Shown here: in pieces, positions 27,903-63,442 of the stretch
Numbering within the stretch: position 1 is the stretch's first letter
How the letters are laid out: each line of letters begins with the position of its first letter
From: Betaproteobacteria bacterium
Lineage (GTDB): Bacteria; Pseudomonadota; Gammaproteobacteria; Burkholderiales; Casimicrobiaceae
Direction: 5' to 3'
DNA length: 63,442 nucleotides
Assembly: GCA_029884335.1 (NCBI GenBank)
Contig: JAOUIA010000015.1
Span: 1-63,442 of the forward strand
Notes under the pieces: generated by a model
The model's input: only the letters and a program-made list of their open reading frames with translations
Told to the model about the DNA's origin: nothing
Database searches by the model: none
Program-made: the position numbers and the translations under genes

Positions 27903-28672
27903 GCGGCGCGCCGCTGCTCGAAGCACGCGCGCTGGCGATCGCCGTCGGCGGGCGCGTGCTCGCGCGCGACCTCGCCTTCGCCGTCGCGCCGGGCCAGTGC
28001 TGGGCGATCGTCGGCCCGAACGGCGCCGGCAAGACGACGCTGCTGCGCACGCTCGCCGGGCTGCTGCCCTGCGCCGGCGGCGAGGTGCGCTATGGAGGCG
28101 ACGACGCGAGCGGGCTGCCGGCGCGCGAGCAGGCGAGGCGGCGCGCGTACCTCCCGCAGGACTCGCACGACGCGTTCCCGGCGACCGTCCTCGCCACGGT
28201 GCTCGCCGGGCGCCATCCGCACCTCGCGCGCTTCGCGTGGGAAGGCGAGCGCGACCTCGCCCTGGCGCGGGAAGCGCTGGAGCGCTTCGGCATCGCCTCG
28301 CTCGCCGGGCGCGACGTGCGCGAGCTGTCGGGCGGCGAGCGGCGCCGCGTGGCGCTCGCCGCGTTGCTCGCGCAGGACGCGCCGCTTGCGCTGCTCGACG
28401 AGCCGTCGTCGCACCTCGACGTCGCGCAGCAGGCGCTCGCGATCGAGGTGCTGGTGAGGCTCGCGCGCGAGTCCGGCCGCGGACTGGTGATGGTGCTGCA
28501 CGACCTGCACCTTGCGCAGCGCTTCTGCGACCACGCGATCGCCATCGGCGGCGGCAACGCACGCGCCGACCGCGCCGGCGCGCTGCTCAATGCCGCGTCG
28601 CTCTCCGCGCTGTTCGGCCGCGAGCTGGTCGAGGTCGGCCACGGCGGACTGCGCACCTGGCTCCCCCGCTGA
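27899..28672 (+). CDS. btuD: Vitamin B12 ABC transporter ATP-binding protein
   Basis: 257 residues from ATG 27899, overlapping the permease stop (ATGA). Walker A GPNGAGKTT (about residues 39-47), Q-loop YLPQD, signature LSGGERRRVALA, Walker B PLALLDEPSSHLD and the switch histidine in MVLHDLHLA. Powers import through the BtuC homologue. The stop codon TGA at 28670-28672 shares its last A with the AAGTAGGG palindrome. Confidence 0.88.
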   Translation: MSGAPLLEARALAIAVGGRVLARDLAFAVAPGQCWAIVGPNGAGKTTLLRTLAGLLPCAGGEVRYGGDDASGLPAREQARRRAYLPQDSHDAFPATVLATVLAGRHPHLARFAWEGERDLALAREALERFGIASLAGRDVRELSGGERRRVALAALLAQDAPLALLDEPSSHLDVAQQALAIEVLVRLARESGRGLVMVLHDLHLAQRFCDHAIAIGGGNARADRAGALLNAASLSALFGRELVEVGHGGLRTWLPR

Positions 28673-28752
28673 AGTAGGGTCAGACTCGATTCTCCGCGTG
28701 CCCGAGTGCCGGATCTCAAGGACGCCCTGGAGAATCGAGTCTGACCCTACTT
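28672..28752. repeat. AAGTAGGGTCAGACTCG palindrome between btuD and btuF
   Basis: 81 bases: AAGTAGGGTCAGACTCGATT plus CTCC at the left, a perfect mirror at the right, with 33 bases between. Both arms touch the convergent stop codons: the outer A on each side is the last A of the TGA of btuD and of btuF. It can form a 24-bp hairpin on either strand and so may act as a bidirectional terminator. The same arm sequence recurs four times at 46433-46576. Such repeats resemble those mobilised by REP-associated transposases; none is encoded here. Confidence 0.85.
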
Positions 28753-29606
28753 CAGCGCTGCTTGAGGGCAGCGCAGAGCTGCGCGACGCCGTCGGCGAAG
28801 CGCGGGCCGGGGCGGTGCAGCAGGTTCGCGTCGACGACGCGCAGTCGCCCGTCGCGCACCGCGGGGATCCCGGGCCAGCGCCGCCACTCGTCGAGCCACC
28901 CGGGACGCTTCGCGTCGTCGGTGCCGGCGACGATCACCTGCGGGCGCGCGGCGATCACCGCCTCCACGCTGACCTGCGGCGCCGGCAGGGCGAGCGCGGC
29001 AAACACGTTCTCGCCGCCGCACGTCGCGATCGCCTGGCTGACCAGGTGCCTTCCCCCGACCGTGTAGAGCGGCTCGTGCCAGATCGCATAGAACACGCGC
29101 ACGCCGCTCGCAGGCACGCCGGCGACGGCGGCGGCGAGCCTGTCGCGAAATGCGCGCGCGGCAACGTCAGCCATTTCGGGTGTGCCCGCGAGCGCACCGA
29201 GCCGCTCGATGCTCGCCGCGATGCCGTCGATCGTCTGCGGATCGCTGGTGTAGATCGCCACGCCGCGCGCGCGCAGCTTCTCCACCTGGGCCGGCGCCGT
29301 CCACGGCCACGCCACGACGAGGTCGGGCCGCGCGAGCAGGATGCGTTCGACGTCGAGCGCGTGCGCATCGCCGACCACCGGCAGGGCGCGCGCCGCCTGC
29401 GGGTGGTCGGAGCCGCGCACGACGGCGACCACGCGCTTGCCCGCGCCCGCCGCGTACAGCAACTCGGTGGCGTGCGGCGCGAGGCTGACGATGCGTCGCG
29501 CAGGCGCCGCGAGCACGACCTCCGCGCCGGCGTCGTCGCGCACGCGGACCTCGGCGCCCGCCGCGCCGCAGGCGACGAACAGCAACAGGGCGACGAGCCG
29601 CGTCAC
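28752..29606 (-). CDS. btuF: Vitamin B12 substrate-binding protein
   Basis: 284 residues. Signal peptide (TRLVALLLFVACGAAGA), then the class III binding-protein pattern: RRIVSLAPHATELLYAAGAG, VVAVVRGSDHPQAAR, LDVERILLARPDLVVAW. The tryptophan and glutamate in IWHEPLYTVGG are in the B12-contact region of BtuF. GTG start at 29606 overlaps the stop of btuB (GTGA), so it belongs to the riboswitch-controlled operon. The stop TGA touches the palindrome shared with btuD. Confidence 0.88.
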   Translation of the reverse strand: MTRLVALLLFVACGAAGAEVRVRDDAGAEVVLAAPARRIVSLAPHATELLYAAGAGKRVVAVVRGSDHPQAARALPVVGDAHALDVERILLARPDLVVAWPWTAPAQVEKLRARGVAIYTSDPQTIDGIAASIERLGALAGTPEMADVAARAFRDRLAAAVAGVPASGVRVFYAIWHEPLYTVGGRHLVSQAIATCGGENVFAALALPAPQVSVEAVIAARPQVIVAGTDDAKRPGWLDEWRRWPGIPAVRDGRLRVVDANLLHRPGPRFADGVAQLCAALKQR

Positions 29607-31441
29607 GGCTGCCAGCGCACGCCGATGAACGCGCGGGCTCCGCCGGTCGCGTAGCCGGCAGCGAGCTCGTAGTCGCGATCGCCGACGTTGTCCGCGCGCG
29701 CGAGCACGGTCACGCCGCCGCCCGCGGCCCACTCGGCGGTCAGGTTCACGATCGCGTAGCCGGCAAGTCGCCGCCGGTTCTCCGCGTCGTCGTAGCGATG
29801 CGAGGACGCCACGACTTCCGCGCCGAGGCGCACCGGACCGATCGCTTGCGCGTACGCGAACGCGCCGTGCCGCCGCGCGCGGCGCGGCAGCAGGTTGCCG
29901 GTCGCGTCGTCGGTCGGATCCTGCAGGTCCAGCGAGAGCCGCAGCGACGCGGCCCGCCAGGCCGCGTCGACGACGATCGTCGCGCCAGCGAGCGTCGCGT
30001 CGGCGACGTTGCGCGGCGCGCAGTCGAACGCCGCGTCGCACTGGAACACGATGAGGTCGCTGACGGCGTTGTGCCAGCCGGTGACCCCGGCCGCGATCCG
30101 CCACTCGCCCTGCGCGCGCGACCAGCGCACTCCCGCTTCCGCGTTGCGCGCGCGCTCGGGACGCAGGTCCGGGTTGGAGAAGCCGGGGTAGTAGAGATCG
30201 TTGAACGACGGCGCCTTGAACGCGGTGGCGTAGCCGGCGGTCACGCGCCACTCGGGCGCGAAGCGCCAGCCCCACGCGATCGCGCCGGTCGTCTGCCCGC
30301 CGTACTGGCTCGAGTCGTCGCGACGCAGGTTCGCCTGCAGCGTGTGCGCGTCGCGGTTGAACTGCCACACGCCCACGATCGCGTTCGTCGCACGCTTCGT
30401 GACGGCGAATCCCGCGTCCTCTCCGATCGACTCCTCGCGCCGCTCATAGGCCGCGGACAGCACGCCATGCGGCACGGCGACGTCGTGCTGCCACTTGAGC
30501 TGGCGCTGCCGGGTGCGGAACGGGAAGTCGCCGTACGCCGTGCGCGACACCGAGTCGTCGCGCGTTTCGCCGAGCTGGAGGTGCGACGACCAGCCGTCGG
30601 CGAGACGGTTGCGGCTCGCGACCTGCCAGATCGCGAGCGTCGTCAACGTGCGGTCGTCGAAGTCCGGCCCGCCGTCGAACTGCGCGTCCAGGCGGTTGCG
30701 CATCACGCCGGCGGAGAGCTCGTGGCCCGGCGCAATCGCGAACGTCGCGCGCGCGGAGTAGTCCTCGCTGCGATACCCGTCGCGATCGGGGTTGCGCGCG
30801 AACGGCGACGCGCCGTCGTTCGTGGCGTCGAATCCCTCGCTGCGGCGGCCGCCGGCGCTCACCGCAAGCCGCGCCGCGCCGAGCGCCAGCGTCGCGCCCG
30901 CCGATGCGGTGCGCGTGTCGTAGGTGCCGTAGCCGGCGCTCGCGTCGAGCGACGCGCCCGACGCAGGCTGCTTCGTGAAGATCTGGATCACGCCGCCGAT
31001 CGCGTCGGCGCCGTACAGCGACGACGCCGGCCCGCGCAGGATCTCGATGCGCTCGACGCGGTCGAGCGGCACGGCCTCGAACGACGGCGCGCCCACGCTC
31101 GCCGACGCCACGCGCATGCCGTCGACCAGCAGCAGCGTCTGGCCGCGGTTGGCGCCGCGCAGGAACACGCCCGACGTGGCGCCGGGGCCGCCGTTCTGCG
31201 TGACCTCCACGCCCGGCTGGCGCTGCAGCAGCTCGACCACGCCCTGTGCGCCGCTGCGCGCGATCTCGTCGGCGTCGATCACCGTCACGTCGGCGACGAG
31301 CCGGTCGAGCGACTGCGGGCTGCGCGCCGCCGTCACGACGACCGGTGGCAGCGTCGCGGGCGGCGCGTCCTGCGCGTGCGCAGCGCACGCGATCGCCGCA
31401 ACGAGCCATCGCGCGCTCGAGGACGGGGAGAGGCGGGACAT
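29603..31441 (-). CDS. btuB: TonB-dependent outer-membrane vitamin B12 receptor
   Basis: 612 residues. Signal peptide, then a TonB box-like ATLPPVVVTAARSPQSL, plug domain with GVVELLQRQPGVEVTQNGG, GVFLRGANRGQTLLLVDGMR and DRVERIEILRGPASSLYGADAIGGVI, and a 22-strand barrel ending in the aromatic-rich AFIGVRWQP. The size matches BtuB (about 600) rather than the larger siderophore receptors. The cobalamin riboswitch directly upstream makes B12 the substrate with high confidence. ATG 31441. Confidence 0.93.
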   Translation of the reverse strand: MSRLSPSSSARWLVAAIACAAHAQDAPPATLPPVVVTAARSPQSLDRLVADVTVIDADEIARSGAQGVVELLQRQPGVEVTQNGGPGATSGVFLRGANRGQTLLLVDGMRVASASVGAPSFEAVPLDRVERIEILRGPASSLYGADAIGGVIQIFTKQPASGASLDASAGYGTYDTRTASAGATLALGAARLAVSAGGRRSEGFDATNDGASPFARNPDRDGYRSEDYSARATFAIAPGHELSAGVMRNRLDAQFDGGPDFDDRTLTTLAIWQVASRNRLADGWSSHLQLGETRDDSVSRTAYGDFPFRTRQRQLKWQHDVAVPHGVLSAAYERREESIGEDAGFAVTKRATNAIVGVWQFNRDAHTLQANLRRDDSSQYGGQTTGAIAWGWRFAPEWRVTAGYATAFKAPSFNDLYYPGFSNPDLRPERARNAEAGVRWSRAQGEWRIAAGVTGWHNAVSDLIVFQCDAAFDCAPRNVADATLAGATIVVDAAWRAASLRLSLDLQDPTDDATGNLLPRRARRHGAFAYAQAIGPVRLGAEVVASSHRYDDAENRRRLAGYAIVNLTAEWAAGGGVTVLARADNVGDRDYELAAGYATGGARAFIGVRWQP

Positions 31442-31526
31442 GGTGCGGATCCTCATCCGGCCGTGCGACCCCGCACGGCAATTGGCGAAGGACGGCGCGA
31501 GCGCGTGCAGCGTCGCGCCTCCGGGA

Positions 31527-31714
31527 TGCAGGCCGGTCTCCGGGCTCGCCATGCGGGACGCCCGCCTTCCCGCCGCGCAGGCGCGGCAGTGGCGTGGGTG
31601 GGCGCCCCTGTTGAGGGCTTACCGTTGCGGGGGCAGCTGCGGGATCCGCGCGTCGCGCGTCACCGCATTCCCGTTTCACCCGCCGCGGCGACAACCGCGG
31701 CGGACACCTGCAAG
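31527..31714 (-). promoter_or_regulatory. Cobalamin riboswitch ahead of btuB
   Basis: On the minus strand the conserved blocks occur in order: GGTGAAACGGGAATGCGGTG, CCGCAGCTGCCCCCGCAACG with GTAAG (the B12 box), CCACTGC, GGGAAGG and AGCCCGGAGACCGGCCTGC. The closing helix pairs GCAGG at the 5' side with CCTGC at the 3' side. Binding of adenosylcobalamin is known to reduce expression of the downstream gene in this class. About 85 bases separate it from the btuB ATG, room for a ribosome-site hairpin. Confidence 0.97.
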
Positions 31715-31920
31715 GATCGATGGTACTCCTCGCCGCCCGTCACTACCGGCTCCGCTTCCCGCCGGCGCGGGGCGAGGGCCGCCGGGCCGCGGGGCGATGG
31801 GTGCCGCGGTCCAGCCGTGCAGGCACGGACGTGGCGCAACGCTGCAGCAACTCCGGCAGGCGGCGGGCCGGTATACTGCGCCCCCTCCCCCCGGACACAC
31901 CACCGGCCCCGGAGAGCACG

Positions 31921-33270
31921 ATGGCGAAGAAGCTCTACATCCGCACGTTCGGATGCCAGATGAACGAGTACGACTCGGACAAGATGGCCGACGTGCTCGA
32001 CGCGGCCGGAGGCGCGACGCTGGTCGACGCGCCCGAGGAGGCCGACATCATCCTGTTCAACACCTGCTCGGTGCGCGAGAAGGCGCAGGAGCGCGTGTTC
32101 CACGACCTGGGCCGGGTGCGCGAGCTCAAGGCCGCACGGCCGGACCTGATCGTCGGCGTGGGCGGCTGCGTGGCGAGCCAGGAGGGCGCGGGCATCGTGC
32201 GCCGCGCGCCGTACGTCGACGTGGTGTTCGGCCCGCAGACGCTGCACCGGCTGCCCGCGCTGATCGAGCGCCGCCGCGCCTCGGGGCAGGCGCAGGTCGA
32301 CGTGTCGTTCCCCGCGATCGAGAAGTTCGACCACCTGCCGCCGCCGCGCGTCGAGGGCGCCGCCGCGTTCGTGTCCGTCATGGAGGGCTGCAGCAAGTAC
32401 TGCACGTTCTGCGTGGTCCCGTACACGCGCGGCGAGGAAGTCTCGCGCCCGCTCGACGACGTGCTCGTCGAGATCGCCGACCTGGCGCAGCAGGGCGTGA
32501 TGGAGGTGACGCTGCTCGGGCAGAACGTCAACGCCTACCGCGGCGGCACCGGCGACGGCGTCGCGGACTTCGCCTCCCTCATCGAGCACGTCGCCGAGAT
32601 CCCCGGCATCGAGCGCATCCGCTACACCACCTCGCACCCGCGCGAGATGACGCAGCGGCTGATCGACCTGCACGGGGCCTGCGCCGCGCTCGCGCCGCAG
32701 CTGCACCTGCCCGTGCAGTCGGGCTCCGACCGCGTCCTCGCGGCGATGAAGCGCGGCTACACCGCGCTCGAGTACAAGTCGATCGTGCGGCGGCTGCGCG
32801 CCGCGCGTCCCGACCTGGCGCTCACGTCGGACTTCATCGTCGGCTTCCCCGGCGAGACCGACCGCGACTTCGAGGCGACGATGCGGCTGGTCGACGAGGT
32901 CGGCTTCGACGGCAGCTTCAGCTTCCTCTACAGCGCGCGGCCCGGCACGCCGGCCGCCGAGCTGCCAGGCGCGGTGCCGCGCGAAGTCGCGCAGGCGCGC
33001 CTCGAGCGCCTGCAGGCCGCGCTCGAGGCGACGTACCGCGCGAACAGCGAGGCACAGGTCGGCAGGCACCTGCGCGTGCTGGTCACCGGCGCGGCGGCGA
33101 AGAACGACGCCGAGCTCGCCGGCCGCGCACCCGACAACCGCGTGGTGAACTTCGCCGGCGCGCCCGAGCTGGTCGGGACCTACGCCGATGTCGCCGTGAC
33201 CCGCGCCTACCCCCACTCGCTGCGCGGCGAACTCCGCCGCGCGAACGGAAGCGCTGACGATGCCCGATAG
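31921..33270 (+). CDS. miaB: tRNA-2-methylthio-N6-dimethylallyladenosine synthase MiaB
   Basis: 449 residues from ATG 31921. Methylthiotransferase domain with [26 protein letters not shown] and GGCVASQEG (three cysteines for the auxiliary cluster); radical-SAM core with [19 protein letters not shown] (CxxxCxxC); C-terminal TRAM domain. Adds the methylthio group to A37 of tRNAs reading U-starting codons. The open frame extends to 31720, but only the chosen ATG gives the conserved start [14 protein letters not shown]. Its leader is shared with the divergent btuB riboswitch region. Confidence 0.95.
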
Positions 33271-36082: not shown

Positions 36083-36128
36083 TCCTCCCGGGGTCCGCGC
36101 CGGCGCGCGGCCCCGCGCTCCCGCATCG

Positions 36129-37566: not shown

Positions 37567-37569
37567 TCC

Positions 37570-38424
37570 ATGGAACCCGCCGACGCGAGGCCCGCGAAGC
37601 CGACGCTGCTCGAGCGCCTCACCGCGCTGCTGACGCGCGAGCCCGAGGACCGCGAGGAGCTGATGGCGCTGCTGCGCGGCGCCTTCGAGCGCCGCCTGCT
37701 CGACGCCGACGCGCTGTCGATGATCGAGGGCGTGCTGTCGGTCTCCGAGATGACGGTGCGCGACATCATGATTCCGCGCCCCCAGATGGACTGCGTGTCG
37801 ATCGACGACACGCCGGAGGCGTTCATCCCGCTCGTCGTCGAGACCAAGCACTCGCGGTTCCCGGTGGTCGGCGAGAGCAAGGACGACGTCGTCGGCATCC
37901 TGCTCGCGAAGGAGCTGCTCAACTACTACGCGAACCCGGAGGGCTTCGTGCTGCGCGACACGCTGCGGCCGGCCGTGTTCGTGCCGGAGTCGAAGCGCCT
38001 CAACGTGCTGCTGCGCGAGTTCCGCGCCAACCGCAACCACATCGCGATCGTCGTCGACGAGTACGGAGGCGTGTCGGGGCTGGTGACCATCGAGGACGTG
38101 CTCGAGCAGATCGTCGGCGACATCGAGGACGAGTACGACTTCGACGAGAGCGAGGACAACGTCATCGCCGAGGGCAACGGCCGCTGGCGGGTCAAGGCGC
38201 AGACCGAGATCGAGGACTTCAACGCCCGCTTCGGCACGGCTTTCGCCGACGACGAGTTCGACACCGTCGGCGGCCTGGTGGTGAGCGCATTCGGCCGCCT
38301 GCCCAAGCGCGGCGAGTCGACGACGATCGGCGGCATCGCGTTCCGCGTGGTGCGCGCCGACAGCCGCCGCGTGCACACGCTGCAGGTCGAGCGCGTCGAG
38401 GGCGGCGAGGCGGCGGGGTCGTGA
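37570..38424 (+). CDS. corC: CBS-domain transporter-associated protein CorC (YbeX)
   Basis: 284 residues. Two CBS domains (about 65-190; VRDIMIPRPQMDCVSIDD and FRANRNHIAIVVDEYGGVSG) and a C-terminal CorC/HlyC domain (RWRVKAQTEIEDFNARF, DTVGGLVVSAFGRLPKRGE). No DUF21 membrane domain, so it is the soluble short form linked to magnesium/cobalt efflux and to ribosome maturation in the ybeZYX operon. Starts three bases after ybeY. Confidence 0.93.
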   Translation: MEPADARPAKPTLLERLTALLTREPEDREELMALLRGAFERRLLDADALSMIEGVLSVSEMTVRDIMIPRPQMDCVSIDDTPEAFIPLVVETKHSRFPVVGESKDDVVGILLAKELLNYYANPEGFVLRDTLRPAVFVPESKRLNVLLREFRANRNHIAIVVDEYGGVSGLVTIEDVLEQIVGDIEDEYDFDESEDNVIAEGNGRWRVKAQTEIEDFNARFGTAFADDEFDTVGGLVVSAFGRLPKRGESTTIGGIAFRVVRADSRRVHTLQVERVEGGEAAGS

Positions 38425-38458
38425 TCGCCCGCGTCCGGCTCGCGTCCCTGCGCGGCCG

Positions 38459-38649
38459 AGTGTCCCGTACCGGAAGTTCCTTGCACAAGGACGAGCGAGA
38501 AATGACGCGCTGCATTGTTGCCGGTCTTGCGGGTATTCACGATACCCGCTGCGACCGGCGTCGCGCAGCGCGCCATTTTCGTCGTCCTTGCGCGAGCGCA
38601 GGTGGTTGCTGCGCCGCGATAGGGCAAGGAACTTCCGGTACGGGACACT
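38459..38649. mobile_element. MITE-like element A, copy 1 (191 bp)
   Basis: Perfect 25-bp terminal inverted repeats: left AGTGTCCCGTACCGGAAGTT (plus CCTTG), right its mirror ending GGGACACT. Inside is a second palindrome, CCGGTC...GCGGGTAT TCACG ATACCCGC...GACCGG. Copy 2 at 60357-60547 has the same length with about ten substitutions and no gaps, so the unit is defined. It has no plausible gene and is too small for a transposase. It lies 34 bp after corC and ends 9 bp before the lnt start, so it must be transcribed with, or interrupt, that operon. Confidence 0.85.
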
Positions 38650-38658
38650 AGCGTCAGC

Positions 38659-40194: not shown

Positions 40195-40228
40195 AATGGC
40201 CGGCTCTTCGCCGCCACCGCACGGACCG

Positions 40229-44339: not shown

Positions 44340-44346
44340 CGCCGTC

Positions 44347-45731: not shown

Positions 45732-46433
45732 ATGCGTCGCATCGCGCTCTCGGGCCACGTCGTCGACTACCGGCTGGTGCGCACGCGCCGGCGCACGATC
45801 GGCATCGAGATCGACCTCGACGGCCTCACGGTGCGCTCCCCGCGCTGGGTGACGATCGCCGAGATCGAGGGCGCCCTGCGCGAGCGCGACCGCTGGGTCG
45901 TGCGCACGCTGGAGGCGTGGCGCGGACGCCGGCGCGACCTGTTGCCGCGCGAGTGGAGGACCGGCGCGCCGATCCACTACCAGGGCCGCGAGCTCGCGCT
46001 GGCCGTGTTCCCGTCGCGCCGGCCGCTGATCCGCGTCGACCTGTTCGACCTCGCGGTGCTGCACCCCGACGCGCCGGACGAGACCCACGTGGCCGCCGCG
46101 GTCTCGCACTGGCTGCGCGAGGAGGCGCTGCGGCTCTGCGTGCCGAGCGCGGTGTCGTTCGCCTGCGCGCTCGGCCTGCCGCCCCCGCCCGTGCGGCTGT
46201 CGACGGCGCGTACCGAGTGGGGCAGCTGCAACCACCGCGGCGAGATCCGCCTGCACTGGCGGCTGGCCCAGCTGCCTCCCGACCTCGCCAGCTACGTCGT
46301 CGCGCACGAGGTCGCGCACCTGGTCGAGCTCAATCACTCGCCGCGCTTCTGGGCGGTCGTCGAGCGGCTGCTGCCCGGCCACGCGGCGCAGCGCCGCGCG
46401 CTCGACGACTGGACGGCTCTGTTGGCCGCCTGA
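45732..46433 (+). CDS. YgjP-like metal-dependent hydrolase (M48/DUF45 family)
   Basis: 233 residues from ATG 45732; a GTG at 45696 that overlaps the plsC stop would give 245. Catalytic motif VVAHEVAHLVELNHSPRFW (HExxH plus a downstream His), preceded by TEWGSCNHRGEIRLHWRL, the hallmark of this family. Function is not settled: a protease fold, with nucleotide pyrophosphatase activity reported for E. coli YgjP. The stop TGA at 46431-46433 shares its last A with the AAGTAGGG palindrome. Confidence 0.88.
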   Translation: MRRIALSGHVVDYRLVRTRRRTIGIEIDLDGLTVRSPRWVTIAEIEGALRERDRWVVRTLEAWRGRRRDLLPREWRTGAPIHYQGRELALAVFPSRRPLIRVDLFDLAVLHPDAPDETHVAAAVSHWLREEALRLCVPSAVSFACALGLPPPPVRLSTARTEWGSCNHRGEIRLHWRLAQLPPDLASYVVAHEVAHLVELNHSPRFWAVVERLLPGHAAQRRALDDWTALLAA

Positions 46434-46576
46434 AGTAGGGTCAGACTCGATTCCCCGCGCAAGTAGGGTCAGACTCGATTCCCGCGGCTTGACGCAGGGC
46501 AACACGCCCCCCTGCGCGGGAAATCGAGTCTGACCCTACTTGCGCACTGCGCGGGAAATCGAGTCTGACCCTACTT
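46433..46576. repeat. Double nested AAGTAGGGTCAGACTCG palindrome
   Basis: Two direct copies of AAGTAGGGTCAGACTCGATT on the left face two inverted copies on the right, with CCCCGCGC / GCGCGGG extensions: four arms in 144 bases. The outer ends coincide with the stop codons of the convergent flanking genes, the TGA of the M48 gene and the TAA of cyaY. It folds into one long or two stacked hairpins and may work as a terminator in both directions. Same family as 28672-28752. Confidence 0.88.
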
Positions 46577-48638: not shown

Positions 48639-49013
48639 ATGATGGCTGACATGATGTCGATGATGGCGCCTGCCGCCGCGCCGGCCGCCCCGAAGAAGAA
48701 GGCGACGAAACGCAAGGCCGCCAAGAAGGCCGTGAAGAAGGCGGTCAAGAAGGCGACGAAGCGCAAGGCCGCCAAGAAGGCCGTGAAGAAGGCGAAGAAG
48801 GCCGTCAAGAAGGCCGCCAAGAAGGCGAAGAAGGCCGTCAAGAAGGCCACGAAGAAGAAGGCCACGAAGCGCAAGGTCGCCAAGAAGGCGAAGAAGGCCG
48901 TCAAGAAGGCCACCAAGCGCAAGGCCACCAAGAAGAAGGCCGCCAAGAAGGCGACCAAGCGCAAGGCCACCAAGCGCAAGGCCACCAAGCGCGCCAAGAA
49001 GGCGAAGAAGTAA
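48639..49013 (+). CDS. Lysine/alanine-rich histone H1-like DNA-binding protein
   Basis: 124 residues; after a methionine-rich start (MMADMMSMM) and an Ala/Pro hinge, the rest is made of KKA, KKAVKKA, KKATKRKA units, similar to the C-terminal tail of histone H1 and to AlgP/BpH1 proteins of proteobacteria. It should coat DNA electrostatically. A good ribosome site AGGAG (48624-48628) precedes the ATG. A strong terminator follows. Repeat number in such genes varies between strains. The coding strand is purine-rich, unlike its neighbours. Confidence 0.9.
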   Translation: MMADMMSMMAPAAAPAAPKKKATKRKAAKKAVKKAVKKATKRKAAKKAVKKAKKAVKKAAKKAKKAVKKATKKKATKRKVAKKAKKAVKKATKRKATKKKAAKKATKRKATKRKATKRAKKAKK

Positions 49014-49055
49014 CAGTTCGCCTTTCTCGCGCCGTCGCAGTCGTGTGACGGCCTG

Positions 49056-49088: not shown

Positions 49089-49132
49089 GCATTGCGGCCC
49101 CCCCGCGCGGGGGGCGCTTCCTCCGGCCCTCG

Positions 49133-50689: not shown

Positions 50690-50797
50690 TTCGGTGGCAG
50701 CCGCGGCGGGCGGGAGGGGGCGGCGCGCGGTCGGCCGATGGTAGGCGGACGATGCCGGACCGTCAACCGCCGATCTCCGGGCATGGCCTGGCTCCGC

Positions 50798-51577: not shown

Positions 51578-52340
51578 GGACGCATCTTCGCGAGCGCCGG
51601 AGGGGCTGTCAACGACGCTCGCCGACTGGTTCGCGACGCCGCTCGGCCGCTACGTGCTGGCGCGGGAGCAGGCCTACTTCGACGGCGCGGTCGCCGACAT
51701 CTTCGGCTACTACGCTCTGCAGGTCGGCCTGCCCGAGGCGCGCTTCCTCGGCGCAAGCCGCATCCCCTCGCGCTGGTGCGTCGACTACGACCCGCCGGCC
51801 GACGTCGTCGCCGACCCGCACTGGCTGCCGTTCCCCGACAACGCCGTCGACCTGATCGTGCTGCCGCACGCGCTCGAGTTCACCGACGACCCGCACCAGA
51901 TGCTGCGCGAGGCCTACCGCGTGGCGCGGCCCGGGGGCCAGGTCGTCATCGCCGGGTTCAACCCGTTCTCGCTGTTCGGCGCCAAGCGCTACTTCGGCCG
52001 CGAGCAGTCGCCGCCGTGGAACGGCAACTTCATCGCGCTCTACCGCGTCAAGGACTGGCTGACGCTGCTCGGCTTCGACGTCGTCGGCGGGCGCCTCGAC
52101 TGCTACGTGCCGCCGTTCGCCCGCGAGCGCTGGATCGAGCGCAGCGGGTTCTTCGAGAAGGCCGGCGACCGCTGGTGGCCGATCGGCGGCGGCGTGTACT
52201 TCCTGCGCGCGACCAAGCACGTCCACGGCATGAGCATCATCACGCCGGCCTGGCAGCGGCGCGAGCGGCGGCGCGCGTTCGTGCCGGCGGCGCGCGCCCG
52301 CGAGACGCTCACCGCCGTCAACGAGCGGCGGCGCGCTTGA
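51576..52340 (+). CDS. Class I SAM-dependent methyltransferase
   Basis: 254 residues. N-terminal [21 protein letters not shown]; a reduced Rossmann core with [40 protein letters not shown] and [21 protein letters not shown], the C-terminal motif of methyltransf_11 proteins. The glycine-rich SAM loop (ExGxGxG) is degenerate. Regularly located between gloB and rnhA in this group; substrate unknown. The ATG at 51576 overlaps the gloB start, so its true start could lie within gloB. Confidence 0.8.
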
Positions 52341-52363
52341 GCGGCGGTGGATCGAAGCGCACC

Positions 52364-52541
52364 GTGAGTGCCGCGGGGCCGTCCCAAGGCGCTCACTCCG
52401 CCCCCCCTGGGGGCAGCGACGCGGCGTCAGCCGCCAGCGTGGGGGTCGTCACGTGAGCGCCGCAGGGCCGTCCCGAGGCGCTCACTCCGCCCCCCCTGGG
52501 GGCAGCGACGCGGCGTCAGCCGCTAGCGTGGGGGTCGTTAT
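52364..52541 (+). repeat. Tandem pair of the GGGCCGTCCC...GTGGGGGTCG repeat
   Basis: Two 89-base units (52364-52452 and 52453-52541) with about six differences. Each begins GTGAGNGCCGC and ends GCGTGGGGGTCGT. The centre CCCCCCCTGGGGG is a dyad. Related single copies occur at 20217-20280 and 60284-60347. The second unit runs into the RNase HI reading frame and supplies its possible start codons. Confidence 0.88.
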
Positions 52542-52965: not shown

Positions 52966-53000
52966 CCGCGCCCGGCACGACGGCTGGAAGAACGGCCCGG

Positions 53001-54701: not shown

Positions 54702-54786
54702 GACGGCCGCCGCTGCCGCGCATTGCGCGGGCCTGCGCGCGCCACTATAGTCGTCCACCCGCCGCGCGAGCCCCGAGAGACCCGTC

Positions 54787-56643: not shown

Positions 56644-56692
56644 GCGATCGACGCAAACGGCGTTCGGGAGCGCGGCGGATGCCGCGACGCCG

Positions 56693-57292
56693 TCACTGGC
56701 GGATGAACTCGCCGCTCTCGCAGTCGACCCGGCGCAGCGGGTAGATGATCTGCCGCGCCTCGCCCTTGAGCTTGCCCTCGACGTGCACGTAAAGCCAGCC
56801 CTCGCTCGCACGGCGGTACACGATGCGCTGCGGGAAGTCGTGCGCGGGGTTGGCGAACGTGTAGACCGCGTCGGGGCCGTCCATCTCGCGCCCGGCGAAG
56901 CGGAACGACGCCTCCCTCTGCCCGGAAGGCACGGCGACGTAGTGCACGCCGTCGGCGCGCGGCTCGAGGCGGATGTACTCGTAGTCCTGCGTGCGCCCGC
57001 CCGCGACGTTGTGCCCGGTGCCGAGCATGAGATTGCCGCGCAGCGGCATCCAGTGCTCGCGGAACTCGCGCTGGTTGACCGTGCCGCGCCAGCAGCCGGC
57101 GAGCCACGCGAAGTCGGCGAGCGGGCCTTCGGGCGCGGGCGCCGCGGCCGGCGCGGGCGCTGCGGCGGGCGGGGGCACTGCGGCGGGCGCGGCCGGGTCG
57201 GGTGCGGCGGGCGGCGGCGTCTGCGCGAAGGCGGCGCCGGCGGCGAGGAGGAGTGCGGCGGCGTGTCGGGACACGGCGGAACGTTTCGTCAT
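56693..57292 (-). CDS. Exported DUF6265-type protein
   Basis: 199 residues. Signal peptide ending AAGAAFAQ, a Pro/Ala-rich linker (about 24-55), then a lipocalin-like beta domain: FAWLAGCWRGTVNQREFREHW, GNLMLGTGHNVAGG, YVAVPSGQREASF and FANPAHDFPQRIVYR. The WLAGxW and PxHDFPQRIxY patterns are those of the DUF6265 family, function unknown. ATG 57292 overlaps the stop of the DUF6352 gene (ATGA), so the two are a transcription unit. Confidence 0.82.
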   Translation of the reverse strand: MTKRSAVSRHAAALLLAAGAAFAQTPPPAAPDPAAPAAVPPPAAAPAPAAAPAPEGPLADFAWLAGCWRGTVNQREFREHWMPLRGNLMLGTGHNVAGGRTQDYEYIRLEPRADGVHYVAVPSGQREASFRFAGREMDGPDAVYTFANPAHDFPQRIVYRRASEGWLYVHVEGKLKGEARQIIYPLRRVDCESGEFIRQ

Positions 57293-58305
57293 TGCGTCCG
57301 GGCGAGTGGCAGGTTGAGGAGCAGGTTCTGCGGCTTGAGCTTCAGGCGCGAGCGCTCGTCGAGCGCCATCGCGAGGTAGACCGGCGCGCCCGCGACGGCG
57401 GGCCGCACGACGTTGCGGTCGGCGAACTCGAGGCGGAACAGCGACAGCAGGCGCTCCATCCTCGCGTCGTCGACCTCGACGCGATTGTAGAGGTCGTTGA
57501 GGATGCCGCTCGCCTGGGCGTCGAGGCCGACGTGCCAGAGCCAGCGGTCGTCGTCGATGCGCCGCTCGGGCCGGATCGCGACCGCCACGCCCAGGAAGTG
57601 CGCGATCCACTTCTCCAGCACGCGGCAGAGCGCGTCGAGCGGCGGCTGGCCGCGGTTCAGCGCCACCGAGAAGTCGTGGCGCTCGTCGCGCTCCCAGTAC
57701 GTCGCGGCGTTCTCCGGTGCGAGCACGTCGAGGTCGATCGAGCGCGTGGGGACGGCCTGCCGCTTCAGCAGCTCGCCGAGGCTGCCGAAGCCGCCGGTGG
57801 TCGCATGCAGCTCGACCACCTCGTCGTCGGCCGCCATGACGCTGCCGTTGTCGAGCACGGCGACCTTCTGCGGCCGGTACAGCATCTCCGCCATGCGCGC
57901 CTCGAGCGGGTCGCAATGCTCGCCGAGGACGTGGCGCAGCAGCACCTGGGTGAGCTGGTGGACGAACATCGGCGGCACGTCGACGCCGTCGCCGCGGAAC
58001 AGCGCGACGTAGGCCGCCTCGAGCGAGGGCGCCGCGAGCAGCCGCTCGCGAAAGCGCAGCCAGATGCGGTAGTTGTCGCGCGCGTCGGCGTCGGCCAGCG
58101 CGTCGAGCTCCCGCCCGCCGACCTCGCGGCGCGGCAGCTTCATCAGCGCGTCGTGCAGCGCGAGCTCGGCAGCGCAGGACTCCGGCACCGGGGCGAGCTC
58201 CGGACGCGCGAGGTAGGTGCGCAGGAACGCGTCGGTGACGGTGAGCCGGCCGTCGCCGCCGACGGCGAGGAGGCGATAGCCGCAGGAGGGCCAGAAGTCG
58301 GGCAT
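57289..58305 (-). CDS. DUF6352-type protein of unknown function
   Basis: 338 residues beginning MPDFWPSCGYRLLAVGGDGR, an almost invariant start in this betaproteobacterial family. No signal peptide. The body includes GELLKRQAVPTRSIDLDVL and WHVGLDAQASGILNDLYN. No enzyme motifs seen. It is followed by the exported DUF6265 protein with a four-base overlap. The upstream gap holds a CCCTCTCCCC-type repeat. Confidence 0.82.
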   Translation of the reverse strand: MPDFWPSCGYRLLAVGGDGRLTVTDAFLRTYLARPELAPVPESCAAELALHDALMKLPRREVGGRELDALADADARDNYRIWLRFRERLLAAPSLEAAYVALFRGDGVDVPPMFVHQLTQVLLRHVLGEHCDPLEARMAEMLYRPQKVAVLDNGSVMAADDEVVELHATTGGFGSLGELLKRQAVPTRSIDLDVLAPENAATYWERDERHDFSVALNRGQPPLDALCRVLEKWIAHFLGVAVAIRPERRIDDDRWLWHVGLDAQASGILNDLYNRVEVDDARMERLLSLFRLEFADRNVVRPAVAGAPVYLAMALDERSRLKLKPQNLLLNLPLARTQ

Positions 58306-58315
58306 GGGGTCGGAT

Positions 58316-58470
58316 TATCCCCTCACCCGCAACCCCTCACCCCCGGCCCCTCTCCCCACTGTCGTGGGGCGAGGGGAGAACTGCACCCGTCGTAGGGCGA
58401 GGGGAGAGCTGCTCTCACCTCTCCCCGCCGTCAGGTGGGAGAGGGTCCGGGGCGAGGGCCGGCGGTGAGG
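58316..58470. repeat. CCCTCTCCCC/GGGGAGAGGG-type palindromic repeat
   Basis: Between the two minus-strand genes: CCCCTCACCC, then CCCCTCTCCCCACTGTCGTG, GGGGCGAGGGGAG, a second such unit and GTGGGAGAGGGTCCGGGGCGAGGG. It is a partly duplicated member of the common proteobacterial repeat that forms CCCTCTCCCC...GGGGAGAGGG hairpins. It leaves almost no room for a conventional promoter of the DUF6352 gene except within the repeat. Confidence 0.75.
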
Positions 58471-58488
58471 AGCGCGGGCCGAAGCCGC

Positions 58489-59052
58489 CTACAGGCCGAG
58501 CAACGCCTTGCGCAACCCGTCCTGCGCGGGCTTCGCGCCGATCCAGATGCGGGTCAGCGCGTGGTTGAACGCGTCGCCCGCGATGGCCCCCTTCGGCTCG
58601 CCGTTGTGCGCGATGCGCGTCGCGCCGCCGTGGAAGTCGAGCATGACGACGTCACCCGGCTTCGCCTGCCCGATGCTGCGCACGATCACGGCCAGCTGGT
58701 CGGCCTGCGGCTTCATCGAGGCGAACTCCTCCGCCGAGGCGTTGTCCCTGAGCCCGGCGACGAGGAGGTCGGCGAGATCGCCGCCGGAGTAGCCGCGCAG
58801 GAGGTCGAGCCGGATGCGCCGCGGCCCCTTCGACACGACCGCCGGGTAGCTGCGGGCCTTCGCCGGCAGGTAGAGGCTGGCGACGTAGTCCTTGAACAGC
58901 AGCATCCGCGTGCGCACGCCCGCGCCGTTCAGCACCAGCGCCTGCCCGCCCACGCTCGCGCCGTCGTCGAGCCTGACCCCGCCGACTTCGGCTGCCTGCA
59001 CGGCGCCGGCGAGGCAGGCGACGACAGCCGCGGCACCGATCGCTCGCCTCAC
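58489..59052 (-). CDS. Exported chalcone isomerase-like protein
   Basis: 187 residues. Signal peptide ending AGAVQAA, then VGGVRLDDGASVGGQALVLN, GAGVRTRMLLFKDYVASLYL and GDVVMLDFHGGATRIAHNGE: the CHI-like fold of bacterial chalcone_3 proteins, which are periplasmic and probably not flavonoid enzymes. Fatty-acid binding has been shown for plant relatives, which would suit the beta-oxidation genes next to it, but this is speculation. GTG start at 59052. Confidence 0.85.
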   Translation of the reverse strand: MRRAIGAAAVVACLAGAVQAAEVGGVRLDDGASVGGQALVLNGAGVRTRMLLFKDYVASLYLPAKARSYPAVVSKGPRRIRLDLLRGYSGGDLADLLVAGLRDNASAEEFASMKPQADQLAVIVRSIGQAKPGDVVMLDFHGGATRIAHNGEPKGAIAGDAFNHALTRIWIGAKPAQDGLRKALLGL

Positions 59053-59074
59053 GCTGCCCCCTGGCGAATGCCGG

Positions 59075-60271
59075 CTACACGGCCTCGAACACGCCGGCCG
59101 CGCCCATGCCCGTGCCGACGCACATGGTGATCATGCCGTACTTGCCGCCGCGCCGGTGCAGGCCGTGCACCAGCGTCGCGGTGCGGATCGCGCCCGTGGC
59201 GCCCAGAGGGTGGCCGAGCGCGATCGCGCCGCCGAGCGGATTGACCTTCGCCGGATCGAGGCCGAGCTCGCGGATCACCGCGAGGCTCTGCGCGGCGAAC
59301 GCCTCGTTGAGCTCGATCCACGCGAGGTCGTCCTGCTTCACGCCGGTGCTCCTGAGCACCTTCGGGATCGCGGCGATCGGGCCGACGCCCATGATCTCCG
59401 GGGCGACGCCCGCCACCGCAAAGCCTGCGAAGCGCGCCAGCGGCGTGAGCCCGTAGGCCTTGAGCGCGCGGTCCGAGACGAGCATCACGGCCCCGGCGCC
59501 GTCGGACGTCTGCGAGCTGTTGCCCGCCGTCACCGAGCCCTTCGCCGCGAACACGGGCCGCAGCTTCGCGAGACCCTCGAGCGTGGTGTCGGCGCGCGGG
59601 CCCTCGTCGCGGTCGACGCGCTTCTTCCTCTCCGCGACCTTGCCCGTCGCGAGGTCCGGCACGTGCTCGACCACGTCGAACGGCGACGTCTCGGCGGCGA
59701 ACTCGCCGCCTTCCTGCGCGGCGAGCGCGCGGCGGTGCGACTCGGCGGCGAACGCGTCCTGGTCCTCGCGCGACACCTTCCACTGCAGCGCGACGCGCTC
59801 GGCGGTCAGCCCCATGCCGTAGGCGATGCCGAGGTTCTCGTCGCGCGCGAACACCTCGGCGTTCATCGCGAGCCGGCCGAGCATCGGGATCATGCTCATG
59901 CTCTCGGTGCCCGCCGCGAGCATCACGTCGGCCTCGCCGGTGCGGATGCGGTCGGCGGCGATCGACACCGCGTTGAGTCCCGACGAGCAGAAGCGGTTGA
60001 TCGTCATGCCGGCGGTGCCCACCGGCAGCCCGGCGAGCAGCACGCCGATGCGCGCCACGTTCATGCCCTGCTCGTACTCGGGCATCGCGCAGCCGACGAT
60101 CGCGTCCTCGATCGCCTCCTTCGGCACCGACGGCACGGCGGCGGTCACGCGCCGCAGCACGTGCGCGAGCATCGAGTCCGGCCTGACGGTGCGCAGCGCG
60201 CCGCGCGGCGCCTTGCCGACCGGTGTGCGGGTCGCCGCGACGATCCACGCGTCCTGGAGTTGTCTCGTCAT
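59075..60271 (-). CDS. fadA: Acetyl-CoA C-acyltransferase (FadA-type thiolase)
   Basis: 398 residues. Catalytic residues of thiolases: Cys in NRFCSSGLNAVSIAADRI (about 89), His in GGAIALGHPLGATGA and Cys in MCVGTGMGAAGVF near the C-terminus. Also TPVGKAPRGALRTVRPD, typical of long-chain FadA. Last step of beta-oxidation. ATG 60271 gives the family start TRQLQDAWIVAATRTP; longer in-frame starts fall in the repeat. The FadB gene lies upstream on the same strand, with two repeats in the 274-bp gap. Confidence 0.93.
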   Translation of the reverse strand: MTRQLQDAWIVAATRTPVGKAPRGALRTVRPDSMLAHVLRRVTAAVPSVPKEAIEDAIVGCAMPEYEQGMNVARIGVLLAGLPVGTAGMTINRFCSSGLNAVSIAADRIRTGEADVMLAAGTESMSMIPMLGRLAMNAEVFARDENLGIAYGMGLTAERVALQWKVSREDQDAFAAESHRRALAAQEGGEFAAETSPFDVVEHVPDLATGKVAERKKRVDRDEGPRADTTLEGLAKLRPVFAAKGSVTAGNSSQTSDGAGAVMLVSDRALKAYGLTPLARFAGFAVAGVAPEIMGVGPIAAIPKVLRSTGVKQDDLAWIELNEAFAAQSLAVIRELGLDPAKVNPLGGAIALGHPLGATGAIRTATLVHGLHRRGGKYGMITMCVGTGMGAAGVFEAV

Positions 60272-60283
60272 GTCAGTCCCGAT

Positions 60284-60347
60284 GGGCCGTCCCGAGGGAC
60301 TGACCCGCCCCCTCGGGGGGCAGTGAACGAAGTGAACGTGGGGGTCG
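60284..60347 (+). repeat. GGGCCGTCCC...GTGGGGGTCG repeat, copy 4
   Basis: Reads GGGCCGTCCCGAGGGACTGA, CCGCCCCCTCGGGGGGCAG, then GTGAACGTGGGGGTCG. It lies just upstream of the fadA start (minus strand), in opposite orientation to that gene. The centre CCCCCTCGGGGG is a dyad. Nine bases after it, element A copy 2 begins. Confidence 0.8.
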
Positions 60348-60356
60348 CGCCATCTT

Positions 60357-60547
60357 GTTGTCCCGTACCGGAAGTTCCTTGCACAAGGACGAGCGAGCAA
60401 TGACGCGCTGCATTGCTGCCGGTCTTGCGGGCATTCACGATACCCGCTGCGACCGGCGTCGCGCAGCGCGCCACTTTCGTCGCCCTTGCGCGAGCGGAGG
60501 TGGTTGCTGCGCTGCGACAGGGCAAGGAACTTCGGGTACGGGACACT
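60357..60547. mobile_element. MITE-like element A, copy 2 (191 bp)
   Basis: Same length as copy 1 (38459-38649), about 95 percent identical by eye, with 23-bp inverted ends; the outermost two bases of the left end have changed (GT for AG). The right end GGGACACT abuts the fadB stop: the TAG on the minus strand is T plus the element's terminal AG (complement 60546-60548). Located between fadB and fadA, which should be co-transcribed, so the hairpin lies in their mRNA unless it stops it. Confidence 0.85.
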
Positions 60548-62951
60548 AGTTCCTCAGCGGCTTGCCGGTGGCCAGCGTGTGCGCTATGCGCGCCTGGGTC
60601 TTCTCGTTGCGCAGCAGCTGCATGAACTCGGCGCGCTCGACGTCGAGCAGCCAGCGCTCGTCGACGAGGCTGCCGGCGTCGACGTCGCCGCCGCACATCA
60701 CGCGGGCGATCGCCAGCCCGATCTCGCAGTCGTAGGCGCTGACGAAGCCGCCGTCGCGCATGTTGACCAGCAGCATCTGCAGCGTGGCGATGCCGGTGCG
60801 CCCGGCGACCGCGATGTCTCGCGCCGGCAGCGGCGGCCGATAGCCGGCCTCGGCCATCGCGCGCGCCTGCGCCTTCGCGACGTGCAGCACCTCGTGCGTG
60901 TTCGGGACGACCACGTCGCAGGGCCTGAGGTAGCCCAGCGCCTTCGCCTCCGGCGCGCTCTTCGAGACGGCGGCCGTGGCGACCTGCTGGAAGTAGGCTC
61001 GCAGCACCGGCAGCATGTCGATCTGGCTGCCGGCGGCGCCCCGCCGGCTCTCGAGGTGAGCGCGCAGCGCCAGTTCCTTGCACCCCGCTCCGCCCGGCAG
61101 CAGGCCCACGCCCGCCTCGACCAGCCCGATGTACGACTCCATCGCCGCGACCGTGCGGTCGGCGTGCAGCACGAACTCGCACGAGCCGCCGAGCGCCATG
61201 CCGCGCACCGCCGCCACCGTCGGCACGAGGCACGAGCGCAGCCTCATCGAAGTGTCCTGGAACTTCTTCACCACGGCCTCGATGCCCGCCCACTGCTTCG
61301 CGGCCGCGGCCGGCGCGATCCCCGAGAGGTCCGCGCCGAGCGAGAACGGCTCCGCCGGCTGCCAGATCACCAGGCCGGCGAACGACCGCTCAGCCTCGTC
61401 GCAGGCGCGCTGCAGGCCGTCGAGCACCTCTTCGCTGACCGTGTGCTTCTTCGTCTTGAACGACACGATGGCGACGTCGTCGCCCAGGTGCCACATGCGC
61501 AACGCGTCGTTCTCGAACACCGTCGTGCCCGCGTCCGGGCGCTCGGTCAGCACCGGGTCGGGGCGCAGCTGCCGCTCGTAGACCGGCAGCGTCGAGCGGC
61601 CGCGGAATGCGTCCGGCGCCGGCGCGTAGGAGCCCTTCGGCGTGTGCACGCCGCCCGCCGATCGCACGCGCTCGCCGCCCACCCACTCGGGCAGCGGCAC
61701 GCCGGCGAGCGCCTTGCCTGCGGCGATGTCCTCGGCGATCCAGCCCGCGACCTCGTTCCATCCTGCCGCCTGCCACGTCTCGAACGGCCCCTGCTGCCAG
61801 CCGAAGCCCCAGCGGATCGCGAGGTCGACGTCGCGCGCGTTGTCGGCGATCGACGCCAGGTGGAACGCCGCGTAGTGGAACACGTCGCGGAAGATCGACC
61901 ACAGGAACTGCGCCTGCGGGTGCGGACTCGCGCGGAGCTTCGCGAGCTTCGGCCCGATCGCGCGCTCCTTGAGGATCTCGGCCAACTCCGGCGCGACCTC
62001 GCCGGTCGACGGCCGGTACGCGCCCGCCGCCGGATCGAGCACCTCGATCGCGCGGCCCTGCCGGCGATAGAACCCCGCCCCCGCCTTCTGGCCCAGCGCG
62101 CCCTTCGACACCAGCGCGGCGACCACCTTCGGCACCGCGAAGCGCGCGTGCCACGGGTCGCCGGGCAGCGTGTCGCGCATCGTGCCGATCACGTGCGCCA
62201 TCGTGTCGAGGCCGACGATGTCCGCGGTGCGGAACGAGGCGCTCTTCGGCCGGCCGATCGCCGGGCCGGTCAGCGCGTCGACCACCTCGTAGGGCAGGCC
62301 GAGCCGCTCGGTGTGCAGCATCGTCGCGACGATGGAGAACACGCCGACGCGGTTGGCGATGAAGTTCGGCGTGTCCTTCGCGCGGATCACGCCCTTGCCG
62401 AGCGCGGTGGCGAGGAACGCCTCGAGCCCGTCGAGCAGCGCCGGCTCGCTCTGCGGGCCGGCGACGATCTCGACCAGGTGCATGTAGCGCGGCGGGTTGA
62501 AGAAGTGCACGCCGCAGAACCGCGGGCGCAGCGCCGCGGGCACCGCCTCGGAGAGCGACGCGATCGACAGGCCCGAGGTGTTCGTGGCGAGAATCGCGTG
62601 CGGCGCGAGGTGCGGCGCGACCTTCGCGTAGAGGTCGCGCTTCCAGTCGAGCCGCTCGGAGATCGCCTCGATCACGAGGTCGCAATCGGCCAGCTTCGCG
62701 AGGCCGCTCGCGTAGTTGGCGACCTCGACGTGCGCGGCGAGGTCCTTCGACGCGAACGGCGCGGGCTCGAGCTTCGCGAGTCCCGCGAGCGCCTTGCGCA
62801 CGATGCCGTCGGGGTCGCCTTCCTTCGCGGGCAGGTCGAAGAGCACGACCGGGACGCCGCAGTTGACGAGGTGCGCGGCGATCTGCGCGCCCATCACGCC
62901 GGCGCCCAGCACGGCCGCCTTGCGGATGATCGGGGGACTCACACTGGACAT
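60546..62951 (-). CDS. 3-hydroxyacyl-CoA dehydrogenase / enoyl-CoA hydratase (FadB/FadN type)
   Basis: 801 residues. Unlike E. coli FadB the dehydrogenase comes first: IRKAAVLGAGVMGAQIAAHL (NAD site, about 9-28), AISERLDWKRDLYAKV, GVHFFNPPRYMHLVEIV and the C-terminal helical domain KDTPNFIANRVGVF. The hydratase part follows from about residue 500: FSLGADL and RGMALGGSCEFVLHAD, with GLVEAGVGLLPGGAGCKELA. This order is that of FadN-type proteins. Oxidises medium/long-chain acyl-CoAs together with the thiolase. ATG 62951. The stop TAG is completed by the repeat element. Confidence 0.92.
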   Translation of the reverse strand: MSSVSPPIIRKAAVLGAGVMGAQIAAHLVNCGVPVVLFDLPAKEGDPDGIVRKALAGLAKLEPAPFASKDLAAHVEVANYASGLAKLADCDLVIEAISERLDWKRDLYAKVAPHLAPHAILATNTSGLSIASLSEAVPAALRPRFCGVHFFNPPRYMHLVEIVAGPQSEPALLDGLEAFLATALGKGVIRAKDTPNFIANRVGVFSIVATMLHTERLGLPYEVVDALTGPAIGRPKSASFRTADIVGLDTMAHVIGTMRDTLPGDPWHARFAVPKVVAALVSKGALGQKAGAGFYRRQGRAIEVLDPAAGAYRPSTGEVAPELAEILKERAIGPKLAKLRASPHPQAQFLWSIFRDVFHYAAFHLASIADNARDVDLAIRWGFGWQQGPFETWQAAGWNEVAGWIAEDIAAGKALAGVPLPEWVGGERVRSAGGVHTPKGSYAPAPDAFRGRSTLPVYERQLRPDPVLTERPDAGTTVFENDALRMWHLGDDVAIVSFKTKKHTVSEEVLDGLQRACDEAERSFAGLVIWQPAEPFSLGADLSGIAPAAAAKQWAGIEAVVKKFQDTSMRLRSCLVPTVAAVRGMALGGSCEFVLHADRTVAAMESYIGLVEAGVGLLPGGAGCKELALRAHLESRRGAAGSQIDMLPVLRAYFQQVATAAVSKSAPEAKALGYLRPCDVVVPNTHEVLHVAKAQARAMAEAGYRPPLPARDIAVAGRTGIATLQMLLVNMRDGGFVSAYDCEIGLAIARVMCGGDVDAGSLVDERWLLDVERAEFMQLLRNEKTQARIAHTLATGKPLRN

Positions 62952-63059
62952 GGCTGCCACCGGGATGCCCGCGCGGGAACGTCGGCGAGCGACGCTCCCC
63001 ATTCTACGGGCCGCGATTTGGTGTTTTGCTCTAGAACAGCCGGCGCCGGGCGCGGCGCC

Positions 63060-63244
63060 AGTGCAGTGAGTCGGTAGTTCGTTGACGAACTTCCGCCGGG
63101 TCGAAGCGCCCCGCACAATCCGGCCGCGCTCGCTTCCAGCCGCGGCGCCCCTGCGCGGCGAGGTTGGGCACCTGCCGCGCAGGGGCAACAATGGCTGGGA
63201 GCGAACTGGCCGGATTGTTCAACGAACTACCGACTCACTGCACT
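63060..63244. mobile_element. MITE-like element B (185 bp)
   Basis: Perfect 26-bp terminal inverted repeats: AGTGCAGTGAGTCGGTAGTT (plus CGTTGA) at the left and its mirror at the right. Inside are two more nested arms, CAATCCGGCC / GGCCGGATTG and CCCCTGCGCGG / CCGCGCAGGGG, so almost the whole element folds on itself. Termini AGTG...CACT are shared with element A although the sequences differ. It fills most of the gap between the thioesterase stop and the fadB start. No gene inside. Confidence 0.82.
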
Positions 63245-63442
63245 AGGCTGCGGCGTCCGGCAGCGCGCGCGGCCGGCGGTCCTCGCCGACGGCCACGTAG
63301 GTCAGCGTCGCCTCGGTGACCTTGACGTTGACTTCCTCGCGCGGGTTGCGCGTCGCGTAGACCTCGACGTTGACGGTGATCGACGTGCGCCCGGTCCTCA
63401 CGATGTCCGCGTAGATCGACACGACGTCGCCGACCAGCACCG
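63243..63442 (-). CDS. Acyl-CoA thioesterase (YciA-type hotdog), C-terminal part
   Basis: The last 66 residues of a gene that enters from the right edge; the frame is open to the window end. It contains VLVGDVVSIYADIVRTGRTS, then ITVNVEVYAT and VKVTEATLTYVAV, the conserved second half of YciA/BACH hotdog thioesterases. Probably acts on acyl-CoAs, in keeping with the fadAB genes it precedes. The stop TAG (63243-63245) shares its AG with the end of element B. The true start is outside the window. Confidence 0.88.
   Translation of the reverse strand, partial: VLVGDVVSIYADIVRTGRTSITVNVEVYATRNPREEVNVKVTEATLTYVAVGEDRRPRALPDAAA

Follow-up and report, generated by a model that had tools for sequence, protein, structure and literature searches.

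Why should so many stop codons meet a palindromic repeat with no base between them? In the window (the whole 63,442-nt stretch of DNA analysed), six gene 3' ends do so, and a first-pass annotation had offered three meanings for the arrangement: insertion targeted to stop codons or terminators, selection for elements that supply a stop plus terminator, or truncation of the genes by the insertion. All six junctions, with the last A or AG of the stop at the edge of repeats from three families, are as it described them at the sequence level. A single cause for the six was nevertheless rejected: families C and D are unlike family A in their ends, length and CTAG context, and the junctions are two different things.

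Two kinds of junction in the window

The four junctions at btuD, btuF, cyaY and a gene labelled "M48" in the first pass, corrected here to a YgjP-like metallopeptidase (PF01863), belong to family A (Table 1). Their distances d, counted as bases from the end of the stop to the first A of AAGTAGGG, are -1 for btuD, -1 for btuF, -1 for the YgjP-like gene and -2 for cyaY, which shares two bases (AA) with its repeat and not one A. The "shared A" follows from the repeat beginning with A's, into which TGA or TAA runs. The family A pair fills the entire btuD-btuF space and folds as a single hairpin (-59.4 and -61.8 kcal/mol, z -10.2 and -11.3). The four-copy cluster, at -108.5 and -115 kcal/mol (z about -15), likewise takes up all the space that separates cyaY from the YgjP-like gene. 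The six junctions are a selection, as further repeats in the window, a family C copy and those of family B, touch no stop.

Table 1. Positions of repeats and adjoining stop codons in the window
Feature	Positions	Strand	Remarks
Family A REPIN-like inverted pair	28672..28752		copies 28672-28691 (+) and 28733-28752 (-)
btuD stop TGA	28670..28672	+	its A is the first A of the family A repeat
btuF stop TGA	28752..28754	-	its A is the first A of the family A repeat
Family C MITE, second in window	38461..38647		36 nt from stop at 38424; touches no stop
Family A cluster, four copies	46433..46576		46433+, 46461+, 46541-, 46576-
YgjP-like metallopeptidase stop TGA	46431..46433	+	adjoins family A cluster
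cyaY stop TAA	46575..46577	-	both A's common to stop and family A repeat
Family B repeats	52363-52538		22 nt past stop at 52340
Family B repeat	60265-60340		overlies gene start at 60271; related to 52363-52538 repeats
Family C MITE, 187 bp	60359..60545		24-nt terminal inverted repeats TGTCCCGTACCGGAAGTTCCTTGC
fadB stop TAG	60546..60548	-	directly before family C MITE end (AAC TAG|TGTCCC)
Family D MITE, 181 bp	63062..63242		terminal inverted repeats TGCAGTGAGTCGGTAGTTCGTTGA
Thioesterase stop TAG	63243..63245	-	directly before family D MITE end

Families C and D are MITE-like, with 24-nt terminal inverted repeats and a length that varies little and leaves no room for a gene: mostly 187 bp in family C (14 of 19 elements) and 181 bp in family D (four of five). 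CTAG stands at one or both ends in 20 of the 24 complete elements, and 13 of the 24 have a TAG stop at one end but not at the other. In the DNA examined, which was chosen around repeats, CTAG occurs 87 times outside element edges (24 in genes, 34 between genes, 29 at stops); it rarely occurs within genes, it frequently belongs to a stop, and TAG stops preceded by C make up a large share of the available sites. If insertions within genes are lost, about 46% (29/63) of the remaining sites are at stops, and 13/24 is close to this, so that a CTAG target alone suffices. The contact of these two families with stops, which the first pass had thought beyond chance, is about what such a target predicts, and ordinary CTAG preference is enough for the fadB and thioesterase junctions. 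IS630 prefers CTAG; a DDE_3 search of the genome gave no match for a partner transposase. MITEPsy1 is described as using CTAG or YTAA for its insertion, and families C and D seem to behave likewise; it has other terminal repeats and a length of 100 nt, and the passages on it describe no link to stop codons (PMC3189936).

The family B repeats at 52363-52538 are two tandem 87-nt GC-rich units ahead of a gene at 52528, and family B is absent from both corresponding junctions of G015, a genome of the same genus. The window also holds a 125-codon ORF (48639-49013), lysine- and alanine-rich with AAKKA-type repeats, whose composition is, by eye, histone H1-like.

Distances between stops and family A repeats

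Family A is a 20-nt repeat, AAGTAGGGTCAGACTCGA[C/T]T, found mainly in inverted pairs and bigger clusters. At up to three mismatches the genome holds 149 copies (75 forward, 74 reverse), against none for a reversed control pattern, and 128 of them were taken into the analysis with their flanks. Both orientations are present in 45 of the 50 clusters; 22 clusters are simple pairs, 19 of which are 70-88 bp long. The family thus has the REPIN trait of a short repeat, mostly in inverted pairs at fixed spacing, as well as the REPIN/RAYT trait of a tyrosine transposase gene of the IS200 type with copies of the repeat on either side: a single Y1_Tnp (RAYT-like) gene was found in the genome, C101:4321-5010(-), and it lies between family A copies. 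Its 229-aa product is the genome's single PF01797 match and scores 63.7 bits with the NCBIfam model REP_Tyr_transpos, below the cut-off of 80. Among the best 80 of 374 transposase-related loci, 70 carry GGGTCAGA within 3 kb, with 184 matches, where about 14 would be expected and a control motif gave 7; TAG precedes the motif in 27 of the 184, spread over 11 loci, and sister repeats carry CGAG, ATGG or others at the GTAG position. We infer from these sequences that family A was probably mobilised and spread by a RAYT/TIRYT-type, IS200-like transposase.

Genes were called with a home-made codon-usage model trained on the genome's own DNA, not taken from an annotation. The distance counts cover clusters with an exact core, those without one being lone copies only in this genome and five relatives; clusters within a called gene (two here, two in the relatives, three in G015) gave no distance. 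In the 50 clusters of this genome, 53 of 68 inward-facing stops lie at d -6 to +8 but only 5 of 26 gene starts (p 4.5e-7). The five relatives (G021, G007, G014, G047 and G035; all but a few of the matches listed) give 46/65 stops against 6/45 starts (p 1.8e-9), with a search pattern containing GTAG that favours TAG-bearing copies. Random placement in repeat-free gaps, drawn 2000 times without regard to gap length, reached at most 45/68, and averaged 21 for convergent and 31 for co-directional gaps.

The genome-wide comparison that the first pass had proposed therefore places the flushness of family A beyond chance. Its zero spacing stands for this family as a whole, but the sharing of a last A or AG covers a minority, since d -3 to +2 accounts for 22/68; stops directly before the repeat (d -3 to +8) make up 34/68 gene ends, and btuD, btuF, the YgjP-like gene and cyaY belong to this group. 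Half of the clusters (25/50) sit between convergent genes, where the free space has a median of 0.5 nt in repeat-bearing gaps (n = 24) and 111 nt in repeat-free ones (n = 22; p 2e-4). Gradual loss of the spacer with age was also tried and rejected: exact outermost copies (37/47 at d -6 to +8) and diverged ones (16/21) are equally flush, so slow spacer loss is not favoured. As a separate observation, two family A clusters, at G000 C68:3305-3385 and 4886-4965 (L083), lie within one called ORF (2905-6519).

The repeat's TAG, protein ends and a sister repeat without TAG

The largest single class is d = -6, in which the TAG of AAGTAG is the entire stop: 18/68 gene ends in this genome (about 26%) and 19/65 in the relatives, shares at d = -6 being biased in opposite directions by the GTAG pattern (relatives) and by the choice of AACGAG copies (G015, below). 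Family A thereby has the trait of GTAG-REPs, whose TAG serves flanking ORFs as a stop. Frame matters here, as 37 of the 41 ORFs that run into the repeat, in this genome and the relatives together, end at its first TAG, where one third would be expected (p 5e-14). The other four end at the next copy's TAG and at a TAG between copies (one each, this genome) or further inside the repeat (two, relatives). At C112:3141 the repeat's TAG is the stop of both convergent genes, whose G015 counterparts have stops 16 bp apart.

Two variants were noted in passing. A 21-nt near-perfect palindrome, AAGTAGGGTCCGACCCTACTT, at G000 C89:15690-15710 (L089), resembles a fused or shortened pair and supplies the TAG stop to both convergent genes, and at G000 C106:72711 (L096) the variant edge AATGAGGG provides the stop TGA instead of TAG.

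C-termini were compared with those of relatives, using homologs with at least 45% identity whose alignment reaches to within 25 residues of the end. In 16 of 18 relatives YgjP stops at the identical residue (TGA in 13), and in six of seven the BtuD end differs by at most one, so that the native stop has been kept here with the repeat directly behind it. By this comparison the stops at d -3 to +8 of YgjP, BtuD and the left gene at C23 are native. The suggestion that insertion shortened the proteins thus fails for YgjP and BtuD and, as a general origin of the junctions, was rejected; it may hold, by a few residues, for BtuF, which falls short of the protein in 22 of 23 relatives. A further candidate for possible truncation is the gene whose end lies at C112:14334, with six residues fewer than in G015. 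Among the other window genes, the cyaY product has the same length in G015, fadB has AAC TGA there at the codon of our AAC TAG, and the thioesterase is three residues longer there.

At d = -6, the C112:1353-3146 protein (gamma-glutamyltransferase-like by eye) and that of the C23:3177 gene are equal in length in G015, and a SEC-C-type protein (label by eye) is one residue longer there. Alignment to solved homologs extends to residue 230/231 in TrmB, 392/393 in acetate kinase, 311/315 in GshB and 223/228 in RNase PH. In the cases compared, the repeat's TAG is used at, or a few codons from, the native protein end. Three convergent junctions are repeat-free in G015, and the spacers it has there (16, 57 and 30 bp) have no counterpart in our genome; G015 is not the ancestor of the latter, and its spacers are an indirect guide to the ancestral state. 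At C6:27684 the repeat is at the same place in G021, where its TAG was lost by a small deletion and the protein (L226) reads into the repeat. That orthologous repeat without TAG occupies L226 1499-1583, and the protein, labelled enolase-superfamily-like by eye, exceeds ours by 14 residues.

G015 carries a sister repeat, with 153 matches, whose edge is AACGAG, CGAG standing in place of GTAG; its transposase is 61% identical to ours, and the repeat core is the same. In regions drawn from the best 100 of these matches, all exact AACGAG copies, 17/59 inward-facing stops lie at d -6 to +8, compared with 53/68 in our genome (p 4e-8), this comparison, like the others, resting on one genome per species. 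Stops are still nearer than starts in G015 (17/59 vs 2/24, p 0.049). At d of at least -3, the median is 4 nt in our genome and 18 nt in G015 (p 4e-5), a difference in nearness that the supply of a TAG alone leaves unexplained. A genome-wide exact search of G015 for TAGGGTCAGACTC, whose reversed control had no match in that genome, found seven places, and in all seven of these copies the TAG before GGTCAGACTC is the stop codon of a called gene (edges AACTAG in four; AATTAG, AAGTAG and AAATAG in one each), a count that is genome-wide and free of region-choice bias.

The contrast with G015 and its seven TAG copies argue for selection on the repeat's TAG and not for insertion targeted to stops. 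Both stop recognition and a simple loss of spacers would be expected to operate in either genome.

Explanations, known systems and meaning

On this basis we consider it probable, and would defend with reasonable though not full confidence, that transposase-spread repeats have come to lie at gene 3' ends and that selection, not stop recognition, is the most likely cause. Among the three meanings proposed in the first pass, selection for repeats that supply a stop fits best. Repeats would reach gene ends, where they are least harmful. With the edge of our lineage, AAG-TAG-GG, an ORF entering in one frame would stop there; were the native stop removed, whether at insertion or by a deletion afterwards, the repeat's TAG could take over if the frame fits. 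For a repeat without TAG this takeover would be closed unless the copy acquired one by mutation, which seems to have happened in seven G015 copies. Selection would then act on which insertions, and which later small deletions, survive. The scheme covers d = -6 well and the flushness of kept stops only in part.

It is rather unlikely that the repeats are instead putative bidirectional terminators or mRNA 3' ends, which would make the old terminator and spacer dispensable, so that their loss leaves zero spacing. The hairpins are very stable on both strands, a simple scan at the two family A junctions of the window found no classical terminator, and the 57-, 30- and 16-bp spacers of G015 are gone here; but the G015 repeats are likewise inverted pairs and show no zero spacing, and flushness is the same in exact and diverged copies.

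We regard as improbable an insertion aimed at, or just after, stop codons, with GTAG, for example, as a guide to the cleavage site and the spacing set at insertion. IS200/IS605 transposases are described as picking sites via short guide sequences, and in one REP system GTAG takes part in the choice of cleavage site (PMC8266576); exact and diverged copies are equally flush, and G015 differs in both edge and distance distribution, as such a mechanism would allow. However, the frame fit in 37/41 ORFs is invisible to targeting at the DNA level, the flanks outside the repeat show no motif by eye, the two stops joined at C112:3141 are apart in G015, and G015 is far less flush despite its related transposase and common core. 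This first-pass reading is accordingly disfavoured.

Plain avoidance of coding DNA, by which insertions anywhere survive only in gaps and short gene-end gaps look flush, accords with the many clusters between convergent genes and, with a CTAG target, is sufficient for families C and D, but for family A it is contradicted by the random placement, by the smaller space left in repeat-bearing convergent gaps and by gene starts that are not flush, and is very improbable.

The first pass knew of no named system with this property, but there is one: according to Di Nocera et al. (2013), ORFs beside GTAG-REPs frequently take their TAG stop from the end of the repeat (PMC3733652). GTAG-REPs that supply TAG stops have been on record since 2013, and family A is a variant. 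There GTAG is described as an unpaired tag at one hairpin end, whereas in family A it straddles stem and loop of GGAAAGTAGGGTCAGACTCGACTTTCC, GT being part of the GGAAAGT/ACTTTCC stem and AG lying on the inner edge of that stem. The TIRYT-associated TIR repeats of the same paper are, like family A, presented as flanking a transposase gene, dispersed elsewhere and often dimeric, and its boxed GGGGWSAS motif fits GGGGTCAG in the transposase-related loci; family A was matched to none of the numbered TIRYT families set out there. REPINs, as described by Bertels and Rainey (2011), likewise combine a RAYT-like gene with inverted doublets whose spacing is fixed (PMC3116915), and the word "stop" is absent from the main text. 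In E. coli, REP hairpins are described no more than 15 nt from a stop codon, and effects on translation have been reported; they lie past the stop, and the passages on them describe no REP that provides the stop itself (PMC12306157). Searches of the open PMC literature gave no related report for the core GGGTCAGACTC (the matches were unrelated by title) and no match for phrases on providing a stop codon. As far as these searches show, the counts, the frame bias, the protein ends set against repeat-free relatives and the two-genome contrast are new.

A one-sentence remark in the REP literature thereby becomes a measurable effect with a natural control: one genus, the same repeat core and related transposases, with an edge that does or does not contain a stop codon. 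Tentatively, and with more doubt than conviction, one may go further: our lineage may have gained the TAG at the edge and with it a portable gene ending (stop plus hairpin), in which case TAG or CGAG would decide whether the repeat replaces stop and spacer, and CGAG would change to TAG, through several edge variants, only where a gene needs a stop. The contrast between the two genomes offers a route to separating insertion preference from selection. Family A also offers a concrete example of DNA, probably mobile, that has assumed the final codon of numerous unrelated genes, and housekeeping genes, namely those for TrmB, RNase PH, acetate kinase and glutathione synthetase, are among those that the repeat ends.
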